Assembly (NCBI GenBank): GCA_027484685.1
Contig: JAIXSO010000069.1
Span: 1 to 64,000 of the forward strand
DNA length: 64,000 nucleotides
Source of the DNA: Bacteroidota bacterium
GTDB lineage: Bacteria; Bacteroidota; Bacteroidia; UKL13-3
Direction: 5' to 3'
The first letter of the stretch is position 1, and each line of letters starts with the position of its first letter. A program made the translations under genes and the position numbers. Shown piece after piece: positions 37,458 to 46,372 of this stretch. The notes under the pieces are model-generated. The model worked only from the letters and a program-made list of their open reading frames with translations, was not told where the DNA came from and did not search any database.

Positions 37458-38119
37458 GTTGGCAATATATTAATTTATTTGTTGTTCCGATGAATTGGAG
37501 GTTAGATGGTTGAATTGTTAGATGGCTAGTCACGCAGGGCGTGATTGTATTGTTAAATTGCTAGTTGGTTAGTCACGCAGGGCGTGATTGTATTGTTAGA
37601 TTGTTTGCAATAGTCATGCCTAATGTTTTTTTTCATAGGGCTATACCATATGTTAAACTCTATAACGCCCTTTCAGGGCTTTTGGTGCTTGGATAGCTAT
37701 CGGACTACGCTCGAACTGATCGAAATTATAGTCATTTCGAGCGTAGTCGAGAAAATATAAATTTCATCTGTTTCTATAAGTGTAAATCTATAGGGCGGCA
37801 CTTTATGTTAAACTCTATAACGCCCTTTCAGGGCTTTTGGTGCTTGGGTTTTTCATAGGACTATACCCTATGTTTAAAACTAATGACCCTTTCAGGGCTT
37901 AGTTGTATGGATAAAATTTTCAATTAATGGTGAAATAGCTTAAGTGGATATTGGTATAACAAGGTGCGGGAGCGTCATTCTGATTCCGCCTAAGCGGAAG
38001 AAGAAACTTTGGCGAGTAAATATTTATTTTTGTAATTTATTAATAATAAATTGTTTATGTTATTTGAATAAGGTTTCAACATATCTCTGCACATACAGAC
38101 AATTGATATATGAAAACTA
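37458..38119. repeat. Repeat-rich gap upstream of the PorE-like gene
   Basis: No gene is visible here. The gap holds two copies of a 30-nt unit with palindrome TCACGC-AGG-GCGTGA (37525-37555 and 37569-37598). Three copies of a unit with GCCCTTTCAGGGC or its close variant (37651-37692, 37805-37847, 37870-37905) follow, the outer two preceded by an ATAGGG...CCCTAT-type hairpin. An inverted pair with CGCTCGAA and TTCGAGCG (about 37698-37745) and a TTCCGC-TAA-GCGGAA-type hairpin (37984-37999) complete it. Confidence 0.85.
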
Positions 38120-38879: not shown

Positions 38880-40394
38880 ATGAAGATAACAGCAATAAAG
38901 TTAAAAAATGTAAGAGGATTTAAAAATTTAGACAAAACGCCTTTTTCAGAATCAATTAATGTATTAATCGGTGCAAATAATTCGGGTAAATCTACAATTT
39001 TAAATAGTATATATATTTTACAAAGACAGGTATTGTTTATCAGTGATATTACATTAGGTCAAGCAAATGGAACAATCTCATTATACTTTAATGGTAACTA
39101 CCAAGATTCTATTTATGATAATATGGGGCAATATAAAAGTATTGTATTCAATTTAAATAATGGTTCAAGATCTTATGGTGATGTAAATAACAATCTTGTG
39201 ACTGGACCAAATCAAATAAATGAAAAGGAACCATATAATTTGATATATCCATATTTATCAAAAAGGAAAGTTGACAGTTACAATGAAAATATTAATGGCA
39301 GTATTGCTGATTCTGTAACAGGTAATTTAAGCAACTTGTTTTCAAAAATTGATAGATTAATTGCGCCTCAAACAGATTTATTAAATAAACAATATATCAA
39401 AGCTTGCAATGATATTTTGGGGTTTGAAATGTCAACAATTGCTAAAGGTAATGGTAAGCATGGAGTTTATTATGTTCATAATTTAGAACATATTTCATTA
39501 ACCGCAATGGGAGAAGGTGTTGCGAATATTTTAGGTTTAATAACCGATTTATGTGTTGCTGAAAATAAAATTTTTCTGATTGAAGAGCCTGAGAATGATA
39601 TTCATCCTAAAGCATTAAAAGGTTTAATGAAACTTATTATTGAAAAATCTAAAACAAATCAATTTTTTATTTCAACCCATTCAAATATTGTAATGAAATA
39701 TTTAGGCTCCGCTCCAGACAGTAAAGTTTTTAATATAACTAATGATGAAAGAGATGAAGAAAAACAGAAAATGTTTATATCTCAAATGAAAGAAGTAGAA
39801 AATAATCCAGAAGATCGAAGGCGAATACTTGAAGATTTGGGTTATGATTTTTTTGATTTTGATTTATGGAAAGGTTGGTTGTTTTTAGAAGAGTCTTCTG
39901 CAGAAGTAATCATAAGAGATTATTTAATTGATTGGTTTGTTAAACCATTAAAAAATAAGATAAGAACATTTGCCGCAGGAGGAACATCAAAAGTTATAAC
40001 TAAATTTGAAGATTTTGACAAGTTGTTCATCTTCTTGCACTTAGAACCAACTTATAAAAATAAAGTTTGGGTCTTAATTGATGGTGGAGAGCAAGAAGCG
40101 GAAATAATCAATACAATGAAAAATAAGTATGTAAATGCTGGTTGGAATGAATCAAATTTTACACAATTTAACGAGCACGATTTTGAAAAATATTACCCTG
40201 AGGAATTTCAAGAACGTGTTTCACATGTTTTAAATATTACTAATGTTCAAGAAAAAAGAAAACAAAAAAGAGAATTATTAATTGATGTAAAAAACTGGAT
40301 AAGCGCTAATGAAGACGAAGCCAAGGAAAAGTTTAAAGAAAGTGCCAAAGAGGTAATTGCAAAATTAAAAGTAATTTCTAAACAGTTGAATTAA
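38880..40394 (+). CDS. OLD-like ATPase with degenerate TOPRIM-like C-terminus
   Basis: A 504-residue protein. The ABC/SMC-type ATPase has Walker A GANNSGKS (31-38), a signature-like TAMGEGVANIL (208-218), Walker B IFLIEEPEND (231-240) and switch His in FFISTHSN (267). The C-terminal part (about 325-500) resembles a TOPRIM fold by position: LFLEESSAE (335-342) in place of the usual EG-x-x-E motif and VWVLIDGGEQE (396-406) in place of DxD. OLD-family nucleases, including GajA of Gabija, have this order. No UvrD helicase is nearby, so this is not a standard Gabija. The catalytic motifs are weak, so nuclease activity is uncertain. Confidence 0.8.
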   Translation: MKITAIKLKNVRGFKNLDKTPFSESINVLIGANNSGKSTILNSIYILQRQVLFISDITLGQANGTISLYFNGNYQDSIYDNMGQYKSIVFNLNNGSRSYGDVNNNLVTGPNQINEKEPYNLIYPYLSKRKVDSYNENINGSIADSVTGNLSNLFSKIDRLIAPQTDLLNKQYIKACNDILGFEMSTIAKGNGKHGVYYVHNLEHISLTAMGEGVANILGLITDLCVAENKIFLIEEPENDIHPKALKGLMKLIIEKSKTNQFFISTHSNIVMKYLGSAPDSKVFNITNDERDEEKQKMFISQMKEVENNPEDRRRILEDLGYDFFDFDLWKGWLFLEESSAEVIIRDYLIDWFVKPLKNKIRTFAAGGTSKVITKFEDFDKLFIFLHLEPTYKNKVWVLIDGGEQEAEIINTMKNKYVNAGWNESNFTQFNEHDFEKYYPEEFQERVSHVLNITNVQEKRKQKRELLIDVKNWISANEDEAKEKFKESAKEVIAKLKVISKQLN

Positions 40395-42015: not shown

Positions 42016-42089
42016 GCTACTCAAAAGGTGGCTTGTGGTGTTTATAAATAGGATGGTTTTAGTAAATTAAAAATGGTTAATTGCAATCA
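42016..42089. repeat. Right direct repeat flanking the DUF1573 gene
   Basis: This is the second copy of the repeat at 41201-41273. It ends 18 nt before the start of the type IIG gene, so that gene's promoter region includes it. Confidence 0.9.
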
Positions 42090-42107: not shown

Positions 42108-45100
42108 ATGACAGTTAACCAATACCTTGAAAATATAATAACTGCGTACAAACGCGGTAATGCTACTGAACATACTTACAGAGGGGCTTTGCAGCAGTTA
42201 ATAGAAAGCCTAGTGCCAAATATAAAAGCTACCAATGAACCTAAACGCCAAATCTGCGGTGCTCCTGATTATATTTTAACTAATAAAGACATACCTGTTG
42301 GGTTTATTGAAGCTAAAGACATTGGCGATAAAGACTTAGAAGGGGCAAAGAAAACGGGCAATAAAGAGCAGTTTGATAGGTATAAAGCATCGTTAAACAA
42401 TTTAATTTTTACCGATTATTTAAGTTTTTACCTGTATAGAGAAGGTGATTTTGTTACAAAAATATCAATCGCTGAAATTACCGATAATGGCATAAAACCT
42501 TTACCTGAAAACTTTGGAACACTAGAGAACCTAATAAAAGATTTTTGTTTACACATAGGGCAAACTATAAAAAGCAGTAAAAAACTGGCCGAAATGATGG
42601 CCGGTAAAGCTAGGTTACTTGCCGATGTAATAGAAAAGGCACTAAATAGCGATGAAGATAACCACGAAAACAGTACTTTAAAAGACCAAATGGTGGCCTT
42701 TAAGCAAATATTGATTCACGATATTACGCCTAAAGGTTTTGCTGATGTGTATGCACAAACCATAGCTTACGGCATGTTTGCAGCTAGGTTACACGACCCT
42801 ACTTTACCTACTTTTAGCCGACAAGAAGCTGCTGAATTAATTCCAAAATCGAATCCGTTTTTACGTAAATTGTTTAGCTACATAGCTGGGCCTGATATTG
42901 ATGATAGGATAAAATGGATAGTAGATAGTTTGGTAGAAATATTTTTGGCTTGTAATGTGGCTGAAATTTTAAAAAACTATGGTAAGCAAACTAAAATGGA
43001 AGACCCTATCATCCATTTTTACGAAACTTTTTTGAGTGAATACGACCCTAAACTGCGCAAGGCAAGAGGCGTTTGGTACACACCAGCACCTGTTGTAAAT
43101 TTTATAGTAAGAGCGGTAGATGATATTTTAAAAACAGAGTTTGATTTGCCACAAGGTTTGGCTGATACCAGTAAAACCAAAGTTAAAGTAAATTTACAAG
43201 GGCAAACTAAAACAGTGGAGCAAGAGGTCCACAAAGTACAAATACTTGACCCTGCCACCGGTACAGGTACTTTTTTGGCTGAGGTAGTAAAACACATTCA
43301 TAAAAAATTTGAAGGACAGCAAGGTATTTGGAGCAATTATGTAGAAACACATTTAATGCCTCGCTTAAATGGCTTTGAATTACTGATGGCTAGTTACGCC
43401 ATGGCTCATTTGCAATTAGATTTACTGCTTACCGAAACAGGCTATAATCCAACCGATTCGTCATTGCGAGGTACGAAGCAATCTCAACGACTTAGAATAT
43501 ACTTAACCAATAGCTTGGAAGAAAGCCACCCTGACACAGGAACTCTATTTGCCAATTGGTTAAGTGCAGAAGCTAACGAAGCAAACCATATAAAGAGAGA
43601 TACTCCTGTAATGTGTATTATAGGAAATCCTCCTTATAGTGGTGAAAGTGCTAATAAGGGCAAGTGGATTATGGACTTAATGGAGGATTATAAAAAGGAA
43701 CCGGGAGGCAAAGAAAAACTTAAGGAAAGAAATCCAAAATGGATTAATGACGATTATGTAAAGTTTTTGCGCTATGGGCAATACTTTATTGAAAAAAATG
43801 GAAGTGGCGTTTTAGCTTTCATCAATCCTCATGGGTTTTTAGACAACCCTACTTTTAGAGGAATGCGTTGGAACTTGCTAAAAACCTATGATAAAATTTA
43901 CACAATAGATTTACATGGAAATGCAAAGAAAAAAGAAACTGCACCTGACGGAAGTGCTGATATAAATGTATTTGATATTGAACAAGGCGTTTCGATCAAC
44001 TTATTTATTAAAACAGGGAAGAAAAAAGATAATGATTTAGGCAAGGTATTTCATTATGATTTGTTTGGTAAAAGAGATTTTAAAAACGATTTTCTTTCCG
44101 AAAACAGTTTAAAAACAGTTGACTACAAAGAGTTACCTGTTGTAGCACCTAATTACTATTTTGTAAATAAAAATTTTGATGAGCAGAAAAAATATGAACA
44201 AGGATTTAAAATAAATGAGTTGTTTACACTTGGCAATGCAGGTATAGTAACAGCAAATGACAGTATTCTAATTAATGATGCTAAGGAAAATTTATTAAAT
44301 AAAATAAAAATCCATTATTCAATTGAAACTAAGTCAGAACTAGTTTATCCAATTTCATATCGACCGTTTGATAATAAATTAATCTATTGGGATACAAATT
44401 TAATTGAGAGAAGTCGAAGCAATTTAATGAAGCATTTTATTACAGGGAAAAACATTGGATTAGCAACAATAAGGATTAACAAGGAAAAAGATTATAGTAG
44501 TCTTTTTATCACAAAATGTTTAGCTGATGCAAGATTAAGCGATAGGTTTTTAACATCCATACTGCCACTCTATCTTTACCCCGAAACCAACGCCCAACAC
44601 AAACTTGATACTTCGATAGGCTCTGATCCTCAAAGAACACCCAACCTTGATTTAAAAATAGTAAAACAAATAGAAAAGAAATTAGGGTTGACATTTGTAA
44701 GTGAAAAGGTTGTCGACTTCGCTCGAACTGATATTCGTGAAACCTTTGCGCCAATAGATATTTTAGATTATATTTATGCTGTATTGCATAGCCCAACATA
44801 CAGAGAAAAATACAAGGAGTTTTTAAAAATAGATTTCCCTAGAGTACCTTATCCAAAAGATAAAGAAACGTTTTGGCAATTAGTAAAACTAGGTGGTGAA
44901 ATACGCCAGATACATTTGTTAGAAAGTGCTGTAGTAGAAAAATACATTACCCAATATCCAATAGATGGGAACAATGTGGTGGATAAAATAAAATTTGAAT
45001 TAAATGAGCCAAAGGAAAAGGCTACAAATTCAGTTTATACTACTAGCGATGATGATGAAATAATTGCTAATAATAGAGATGATATTTCATTTCCTCAGCC

Positions 45101-45389
45101 ACATTTAAGAAATAACGATAACATGTTGCATGAACCGAGCATAGAAGAGACTGTTTCGTTCCTCGCAGTGACGGGTAAGGTTTATATTAACGAAACTCAA
45201 TACTTTAACAATGTACCAGAAGTGGCTTGGAATTTTTATATTGGTGGATATCAGCCTGCACAAAAATGGTTGAAAGACCGCAAAGGAAGAAAGTTGGAAT
45301 TTGAAGATATTTTGCATTATCAAAAAATAATAGTTGCCTTAACTGAAACAGATAGGCTAATGAAAGAAATTGATAAAATAGAATTGTAG
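42108..45389 (+). CDS. Type IIG restriction-modification enzyme
   Basis: I place the start at the ATG at 42108 (1093 residues, MTVNQYLENI). One chain holds cutting and methylation. The N-terminal nuclease has the PD-(D/E)xK residues D54 (GAPDY), E68 and K70 (IEAKD). A helical linker leads to the adenine methyltransferase with motif I DPATGTGTF (about 381-389) and motif IV NPPY (about 506-509). The C-terminus should be the target-recognition domain. Three palindromic elements are translated within it (43459-43485, 44710-44733, 45148-45175). Defence against unmethylated DNA is the expected role. Confidence 0.9.
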   Translation: MTVNQYLENIITAYKRGNATEHTYRGALQQLIESLVPNIKATNEPKRQICGAPDYILTNKDIPVGFIEAKDIGDKDLEGAKKTGNKEQFDRYKASLNNLIFTDYLSFYLYREGDFVTKISIAEITDNGIKPLPENFGTLENLIKDFCLHIGQTIKSSKKLAEMMAGKARLLADVIEKALNSDEDNHENSTLKDQMVAFKQILIHDITPKGFADVYAQTIAYGMFAARLHDPTLPTFSRQEAAELIPKSNPFLRKLFSYIAGPDIDDRIKWIVDSLVEIFLACNVAEILKNYGKQTKMEDPIIHFYETFLSEYDPKLRKARGVWYTPAPVVNFIVRAVDDILKTEFDLPQGLADTSKTKVKVNLQGQTKTVEQEVHKVQILDPATGTGTFLAEVVKHIHKKFEGQQGIWSNYVETHLMPRLNGFELLMASYAMAHLQLDLLLTETGYNPTDSSLRGTKQSQRLRIYLTNSLEESHPDTGTLFANWLSAEANEANHIKRDTPVMCIIGNPPYSGESANKGKWIMDLMEDYKKEPGGKEKLKERNPKWINDDYVKFLRYGQYFIEKNGSGVLAFINPHGFLDNPTFRGMRWNLLKTYDKIYTIDLHGNAKKKETAPDGSADINVFDIEQGVSINLFIKTGKKKDNDLGKVFHYDLFGKRDFKNDFLSENSLKTVDYKELPVVAPNYYFVNKNFDEQKKYEQGFKINELFTLGNAGIVTANDSILINDAKENLLNKIKIHYSIETKSELVYPISYRPFDNKLIYWDTNLIERSRSNLMKHFITGKNIGLATIRINKEKDYSSLFITKCLADARLSDRFLTSILPLYLYPETNAQHKLDTSIGSDPQRTPNLDLKIVKQIEKKLGLTFVSEKVVDFARTDIRETFAPIDILDYIYAVLHSPTYREKYKEFLKIDFPRVPYPKDKETFWQLVKLGGEIRQIHLLESAVVEKYITQYPIDGNNVVDKIKFELNEPKEKATNSVYTTSDDDEIIANNRDDISFPQPHLRNNDNMLHEPSIEETVSFLAVTGKVYINETQYFNNVPEVAWNFYIGGYQPAQKWLKDRKGRKLEFEDILHYQKIIVALTETDRLMKEIDKIEL
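43459..43485. repeat. Palindromic element copy 1 inside type IIG gene
   Basis: It carries TCATTGCGAGG and ACGAAGCAATCT, a repeat well known between genes in many bacteria. In this frame it reads SSLRGTKQSQ. Confidence 0.85.
44710..44733. repeat. Palindromic element copy 2 inside type IIG gene
   Basis: GTCGACTTCGCTCGAACTGA resembles the intergenic sequence at about 37697-37715 (CGGACTACGCTCGAACTGAT). It is translated as VVDFARTD. Confidence 0.65.
45148..45175. repeat. Palindromic element copy 3 inside type IIG gene, inverted
   Basis: The reverse complement (CGTCACTGCGAGG then AACGAAACAGTCT) matches the element at 43459-43485 with few changes. It is translated as ETVSFLAVTG. Confidence 0.8.
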
Positions 45390-45720: not shown

Positions 45721-46372
45721 GCCTATGGTTGGTGTTTTTCCAACCTATTTTTTCAATCCCCAAAGCTAATTAAAAGGTAGCTTTTTTACTCTTTTTTATG
45801 TTTATCGATGTATCACCAACAAGCAATAAGTGTCGCCTCCACGAGGCTTTGGTAAACAGTTTGCAAATTTTTGTTACCATACTGTCGCTCCTATGGAGCT
45901 TGCCTAAGGATGGTTTAAATTTAACTTTGTTTTTTATACTTTTATTAGCATGTTTGAATATGCCTATAGTCGGTGTTTTCACCGACCTTTTATCACTATT
46001 GCCCAAGCTACTCAAATGGTAATTTTTTGTATAAAATAAGTGTCGCCTCTACGAGGATTTGGTAAACAGTTTGCAACTTTTTGTTACCATACTGTCGCTC
46101 CTATGGAGCTTGCCTAAGGATGGTTTAAATTTAACTTTGTTTTTTATACTTTTATCAGCATGTTTGAATATGCCTATAGTCGGTGTTTTCACCGACCTTT
46201 TATCACTATTGCCCAAGCTACTCAAATGGTAATTTTTGGTATAAAATAAGTATCGCCTCTACGAGGCTTTGGCAAACAGTTTGCAACTTTTTGTTACCAT
46301 AATGTCGCTCCTATGGAGCTTGCCGAAGCAAGTTTAAATTTTACTTTGTTTTTTATACTTTTATCCGCATGT
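45721..46372. repeat. 210-bp imperfect tandem repeat array
   Basis: Units start near 45826, 46036 and 46246 (period 210 bp, third unit cut at about 46372), and a diverged partial unit lies at 45721-45790. Each unit has hairpins GCCTC-NNN-GAGGC (mutated to GAGGA in unit 2), GCTCC-TAT-GGAGC and, in the first two, GTCGGTG-TTTT-CACCGAC. Open frames across it are by-products. No gene is seen in this gap. Confidence 0.9.

Follow-up and report, generated by a model that had tools for sequence, protein, structure and literature searches.

In searching a 64,000-nucleotide stretch of a Bacteroidota genome (GTDB lineage UKL13-3; NCBI GenBank assembly GCA_027484685.1, contig JAIXSO010000069.1, positions 1 to 64,000, hereafter the window), we found a type IIG-like restriction-modification gene that encodes three short peptides matching repeats of the same genome. 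It is very likely that each peptide is the translation of a single unit from one of two repeat families, here called REP-A and REP-B, that are dispersed through the genome, mostly between genes, and that these units entered an intact gene in at least three separate insertions and were tolerated in disordered linkers that recur as landing sites. The gene and its three units are as follows.

42108–45386, plus strand: type IIG-like restriction-modification gene, a single chain of 1093 amino acids (open reading frame (ORF), Pfam, PDB sequence hits, Foldseek)
43459–43485, plus strand: REP-A copy 1 (ATTGC type), within the peptide SSLRGTKQSQ (repeat match, reading frame, about 8 extra residues against relatives)
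44709–44732, plus strand: REP-B single unit, read as VVDFARTD (repeat match, reading frame)
45147–45173, minus strand: REP-A copy 2, an inverted ACTGC-type unit translated as SFLAVTG (repeat match; 3 residues longer than the sister gene)

All three units are in frame and translated within the gene, whose ORF runs open and intact across them. An earlier note on this DNA had already picked out the three in-frame peptides and had recognized one element as an inverted copy of another, both correctly; its position for REP-A copy 1 was exact, while those for the other two units were one base off. Within the window, TCATTGCGAGG has 3 matches at up to one mismatch, against 0.39 expected from shuffles. 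Genome-wide, in the count that the earlier note had proposed, REP-A (CGTCATTGCGAGG, up to one mismatch) has 31 matches and REP-B (GACTTCGCTCGAACTGA, up to two mismatches) 39, against 1 and 0 for the respective reversed controls, and the sequence contexts of these matches yield the units CGTCATTGCGAGGNACGAAGCAATCTC and GTTCTCGACTTCGCTCGAACTGAC. Both families are mostly intergenic and often form inverted pairs (6 among the 31 REP-A matches, less than 100 bp apart, and 10 among the 39 REP-B matches), one of which represents the kin at 37.7 kb to which the third element had been linked.

37703–37748, no strand assigned: two REP-B units paired in inverted orientation, extragenic (REP-B matches)

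The three units in the gene are single halves of elements that form long inverted pairs elsewhere. They barely fold, at −2.4, −1.6 and −1.3 kcal/mol, and do so no more stably than shuffled sequences; for inverted pairs between genes the folding energy is about −33 and −28 kcal/mol. The term "palindromic element", as used in the earlier note, suits the repeat family but not the single copies in the gene. The two REP-A copies are identical at 23 of 27 bases with a longest common exact run of 7 nucleotides, so that recombination between them, which had also been raised, is unlikely. As copy 2 is of the ACTGC type and copy 1 of the ATTGC type, they look like two separate insertions.

Inspection of all 31 REP-A and 39 REP-B matches placed 7 copies inside ORFs of at least 120 amino acids. 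Besides the three in the window gene, these are a REP-A unit in a second Eco57I-type enzyme of this genome (L023), read as SLRGTKQSQS, the same peptide as in the window gene; a REP-B unit in its HsdM gene (L048), where the gain over the nearest solved HsdM is only about 4 residues; one copy in a PIG-L-like ORF (L314); and a REP-B match with 2 mismatches in a DUF4842 protein (L313) that we rejected as probably a chance match. Three restriction genes hold 5 of the 7. Intragenic copies in other sampled genomes were also found in HsdS, HsdM, LeuRS, aminotransferase class V and glycosyltransferase genes, so restriction genes are common hosts without being the only ones.

Comparison with homologues lacking the peptides, another check proposed in the earlier note, revealed empty sites. 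For this we aligned 87 genes and left out three partial ones (L074, L168 and L170), giving 84 full-length proteins; the sources were 80 loci in named genomes and further relatives from a genome search. REP-A copy 1 is absent from relatives at 51–84% identity, the window gene having 8 extra codons there, and its peptide occurs in none of the 84 proteins except the window's own. At the REP-B site, the sister gene L087 carries a different repeat, FDYAQDD, in place of VVDFARTD, and remoter relatives have neither; at the REP-A copy 2 site the window gene is three codons longer than L087. The FDYAQDD family has 16 matches in the sister genome (the labels L087, G087 and G004 being taken as one genome on their matching contig number, length and coordinates) and 5 in the window's genome, meaning that this linker contains different repeats in two species of the same genus. 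Relatives lack all three peptides, and neither the 84 proteins nor 22 further genes showed them at matching positions in any distant species. That the peptides are ancestral protein sequence or similar to the repeats by chance is thus extremely improbable: we found no support for it at any of the three units, and both the genome-wide repeat counts and the relatives without the peptides at those sites speak against it.

The host gene begins with ATG, and its frame is also open from an upstream TTG at 42081. Its product is made up of an N-terminal nuclease-like part, an N6-adenine methyltransferase and a Type_ISP_C specificity domain, with Pfam matches to Type_ISP_C (1.2e-75), N6_Mtase and Eco57I; the nuclease motif has no Pfam match of its own and is deduced from the conserved residues D54, E68 and K70. 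Sequence matches in the PDB are DrdV (7lo5/7lvv), LlaGI and LlaBIII. DrdV is the nearest solved relative and, as 7lo5, also the top Foldseek match of the enzyme model (E = 2.1e-39), alike across nearly the whole chain but at only about 20% identity over the fold alignment. DrdV is a type IIG enzyme, and its closeness in both sequence and fold agrees with the type IIG label that the earlier note had given. The predicted layout is likewise that of a type IIG enzyme, in that one chain without a helicase combines the nuclease, the N6-methyltransferase and the specificity domain. The gene probably moves between lineages itself; its nearest relative by tree path is in a Crocinitomicaceae genome.

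One alternative is that the inserts mark a decaying, inactive gene, as might be suggested by the homologue L092, which has an in-frame stop at its insert. The window gene has an open frame and retains the eight positions that are invariant in the homologue alignment (D54, E68, K70, D381, N507, P508, P509 and Y510). Its nonsynonymous divergence (dN) from L087 is 0.15 against a synonymous divergence (dS) of 1.35, the latter near saturation, which weighs against a dead enzyme over that span. Judged by its sequence, this is an intact enzyme gene under purifying selection, and decay would seem very unlikely.

Insertion into an intact gene, which we favor, is consistent with where the units lie. In the predicted structure (mean predicted local distance difference test score, pLDDT, of 72) they sit in the least confident parts. 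The long segments with pLDDT below 50 are residues 450–499, 826–841, 870–875 and 970–1019, which correspond to linkers R3, R5, R6 and R7, and the peptides, when mapped on this model as the earlier note had suggested, fall in the R3, R6 and R7 segments.

43440–43499, plus strand: linker R3 in the methyltransferase part, insertion hot spot (length outliers in the alignment; pLDDT below 50 at residues 450–499)
44589–44639, plus strand: linker R5, containing ACTTCGATAGGCTC at 44610–44623 (length variation in the homologue alignment)
44685–44756, plus strand: linker R6, an insertion hot spot within the specificity domain (length outliers; pLDDT below 50 at residues 870–875)
44967–45197, plus strand: linker R7, an insertion hot spot that precedes the C-terminal domain (length outliers; pLDDT below 50 at residues 970–1019)

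We had considered ACTTCGATAGGCTC at 44610 as a fourth repeat in the gene. It resembles TTCGA-class repeats found in other genomes, but with only 2 matches genome-wide, counting itself, it does not qualify as a repeat here and was dropped.

Extra residues in the 84 proteins concentrate in linkers R1, R3, R5, R6 and R7. Besides the window's own, 7 of the 84 proteins are listed as at least 4 amino acids above the median length in R3; 25 are at least 5 above it in R6 and 36 at least 5 above it in R7, one of the latter with an in-frame DUF559 domain. The DNA of these inserts is often palindromic or repeat-like, with near-perfect palindromes in L091, L137, L151 and L157, CCCTCC..GGAGGG units in L102, L109, L111, L134, L138, L144 and others, TTCGA-class units in L090, L134, L145 and L149, and REP-A-like units in L163. 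Counting a list of such motifs in 81 genes gave 37 matches in 22,638 nucleotides of linker and 1 in the 235,845 nucleotides of the rest of the same genes, which here includes linkers R2 and R4 even though they too vary in length. Other ORFs had 15 matches in 743,243 nucleotides and sequence outside ORFs 97 in 345,431 (Fisher p = 3e-38 for linkers against the rest of the genes and 7e-45 against other ORFs). Repeat-like palindromes in the five linkers occur in 20 of the 81 homologues, up to several per gene, so three units in one gene are not as singular as the earlier note had supposed.

A plain hairpin scan with stems of at least 10 was too noisy because a hairpin common to many homologues, AAAATGGA, recurs, and palindromes with stems of at least 13 were therefore used together with the motif list. 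These palindromes alone number 7 in the linkers, 0 in the rest of the genes, 8 in other ORFs and 84 outside ORFs (p = 4e-8 against the rest of the genes and 1e-7 against other ORFs). A set of 22 genes new to the analysis, drawn from 395 genomes (29 loci read, minus 6 duplicates and 1 that was too short), gave 4 matches in 4,767 nucleotides of linker against 2 in 58,494 elsewhere (p = 4e-4). The linker matches come from 3 of the 22 genes, and one of the two outside matches falls in the linker R2 stretch.

On a FastTree tree of the 84 proteins, the presence of any insert requires 15 changes for 20 genes, inserts in R3 7 changes for 7 genes and those in R6 12 for 14. By sequence these inserts fall into several unrelated families, and on the gene tree they were gained many times over. 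When 34 inserts were compared with samples of the genomes that carry them (12 genomes in all), 7 had a match elsewhere that scored at least 18 and exceeded every one of 20 same-length controls: all 4 inserts of L091 and a single insert each of L163, L149 and L134. Matching of inserts across loci was weak, as controls often matched other loci too, perhaps through related genes. The linker R7 of the Kaistella homologue L149 also harbors a tandem peptide array of DIPFLQP-like repeats.

Several observations weigh against dispersed repeats being tolerated in disordered linkers. The motif list was drawn up after the inserts had been seen, and alignment gaps at the inserts account for part of the low pLDDT of the linkers. 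The other 27 of the 34 inserts were not refound in the genome samples, which were small (0.02–0.22 Mb per genome); one reason for some of these may be that one repeat family, GGAG/GTGTCC (GGAGGGGTGTCCGCAGGACGGGGTGGT), is nearly private to the enzyme genes and DUF559. This family is not dispersed but confined to genes of the enzyme family and DUF559 ORFs. The insert of L092, which is REP-like and lies in linker R3, ends in its in-frame stop, so insertion is not always harmless. Finally, no mobility enzyme was found for REP-A or REP-B. The genome does combine short palindromic repeats with 15 Y1_Tnp (RAYT-like) matches, as in RAYT/REPIN systems, but none of the 10 RAYT loci fetched from among these has a REP-A or REP-B unit nearby, and RAYTs were rejected as mobilizers of either family.

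We nevertheless propose that REP-A and REP-B units were copied into the gene by a mobility enzyme, and that units landing in frame in disordered linkers, where extra residues can be tolerated, would survive. Insertions that break the fold or the frame would be lost by selection, and L092 may be one on its way out. The effect of the peptides on the enzyme would be near-neutral, and the same linkers, repeatedly struck by unrelated palindromic repeats in homologues, would act as recurrent landing sites. It has to be weighed against this that the peptides could be selected for, inserts in the linkers of the specificity domain shifting domain spacing and retuning the recognized sequence. The hot linkers R5 and R6 do lie in the Type_ISP_C specificity part and R7 beside it, and the linker hot spot is far denser than other ORFs. 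However, R1 lies on the nuclease side and R3 in the methyltransferase part, housekeeping genes such as LeuRS carry similar inserts, and the insert sequences are mutually unrelated, as mere tolerance would predict. Retuning therefore appears unlikely to us.

Across homologues, the linkers are used by at least two kinds of repeat, namely dispersed ones, as in the window, and the GGAG/GTGTCC family. At up to 3 mismatches, the 27-base GGAGGGGTGTCCGCAGGACGGGGTGGT has 16 matches in 12 whole genomes, found in G092, G088, G093, G096 and G097; 12 lie inside restriction genes of the window enzyme's family, the other 4 border two free DUF559 ORFs, and there are none elsewhere. Just upstream of the restriction gene in L124, inverted GGAG units stand on either side of a DUF559 ORF, and the R7 insert of L111 carries an in-frame DUF559 domain. 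A search of 8 genomes gave 33 DUF559 matches, many within long frames. Pfam analysis of ten of these frames together with L193 and L111 placed DUF559 inside 3 enzymes of this family, 3 LeuRS (at one site), MetH, RecG, PurL and a UvrD-like helicase; in a BioF-like protein it stands at the end (we assigned the names MetH, PurL and BioF from Pfam domains), and the tenth frame, L335, is DUF559 alone. Palindromes often adjoin the domain in the genes where it lies within a protein (L323, L336 (the same as L193), L339, L322, L326, L327, L347, L344, L345, L350 and L111). In a fourth LeuRS (L211), the site that holds DUF559 in the other three is occupied by a palindrome alone, and a Polaribacter LeuRS has DUF559 together with a REP-A-like unit. 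Flanking inverted repeats exceed the 99th percentile of 2,829 control positions in 10 of the 26 DUF559 domains that could be located (of 27, L327 not being located).

These data suggest that DUF559 may move these repeats. We tentatively consider, as an addition to linker tolerance, that this Vsr-like nuclease moves or moved some of them, a palindrome, a DUF559 ORF and an inverted palindrome being inserted in frame into protein linkers, with the short repeats as solo ends or internally deleted forms. The distribution of the GGAGGGGTGTCCGCAGGACGGGGTGGT matches, the range of proteins with in-frame domains, the flanking inverted repeats and the Polaribacter LeuRS are all in line with such a role. 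On the other hand, REP-A and REP-B of the window's own genome are not systematically beside its 3 DUF559 matches, and one ACTGC-type REP-A unit about 330 bp from one of them could be there by chance. Moreover, 16 of the 26 domains are without such a strong flanking inverted repeat, and association is not transposition. Rather doubtful, in our estimate, is the broader proposal that Bacteroidota have an unrecognized class of mobile element that enters protein-coding genes in frame: a DUF559 ORF with inverted palindromic ends and without self-splicing, translated as an internal domain of host proteins (LeuRS, RecG, MetH, PurL and restriction enzymes), leaving solo ends as peptides, with one lineage homing to the linkers of this enzyme family. 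We also observed, for L335 (own genome, C14:18934–19239) and L329, an ORF of 303 amino acids with a DUF559 domain, the C-terminal part of which has a weak match to the C-terminal domain of the window enzyme. In Polaribacter, at about 319.8–320.5 kb of G103:C1, there is a regular array of many copies of CGTCATTGCGA spaced 58–59 bp apart.

Repetitive extragenic palindromic (REP) sequences with a CGTC tag are known in several phyla, including Bacteroidetes, and the main text of PMC3733652 describes some that lie inside ORFs, genes with two or more inserts (uvrA and uvrB) and different REPs at about the same recB site in two Xanthomonas species. As described there, these intragenic REPs are of the same kind as the window case, which shows the behavior of intragenic REPs and Rickettsia palindromic elements in being a dispersed repeat inserted in frame and absent in orthologues. 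REP-A resembles the CGTC super-family in its initial CGTC followed by an A/T stem start, with the tag at one end and outside the stem, and in being short, mostly outside genes, sometimes within ORFs and present as inverted dimers. Yet the stems of that super-family, in the same source, are 8–9 bp with loops of 4–5 nucleotides and a CCA tail, whereas REP-A copy 1 has a 5 bp stem and a 10-nucleotide loop, the stem of copy 2 is 6 bp interrupted by a bulge, and the tail is CTC. Because stem, loop and tail differ despite the tag, we do not file REP-A as a member. The earlier note's comparison with Rickettsia palindromic elements, which PMC3733652 describes as repeats inserted in frame in protein genes, proved apt given the dispersed repeats, the reading frame and the empty sites in relatives; relative to that description, the organisms differ, and here one gene family is struck repeatedly across genomes by unrelated repeat families.

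The word "restriction" does not appear in the main text of PMC3733652, and in literature searched mostly outside subscription access we found no paper on repeats within this type IIG enzyme family. Searches likewise found nothing linking DUF559 with repeats in Flavobacteri, nor very short patch repair with palindromes and Bacteroidetes, nor homing endonuclease and Vsr with in-frame insertion. As far as these searches reach, with papers on DUF559 judged by titles and the openings of abstracts, two things are new: the recurrence of landing sites across a type IIG enzyme family and the link between DUF559 and one of the repeat families. REPs in genes have so far been scattered cases, and here a few linkers were independently struck in many genomes by several unrelated families. 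The linkers of this enzyme family thus offer a natural map of insertion tolerance and a fixed target for watching repeat mobility.

Elsewhere in the window, an AAA_15/AAA_21 ATPase gene (38880–40394) upstream of the restriction gene is possibly a further defence gene. The intergenic stretch at 45825–46354 contains a tandem repeat of about 210 bp, with two full copies (98%) and a partial third.

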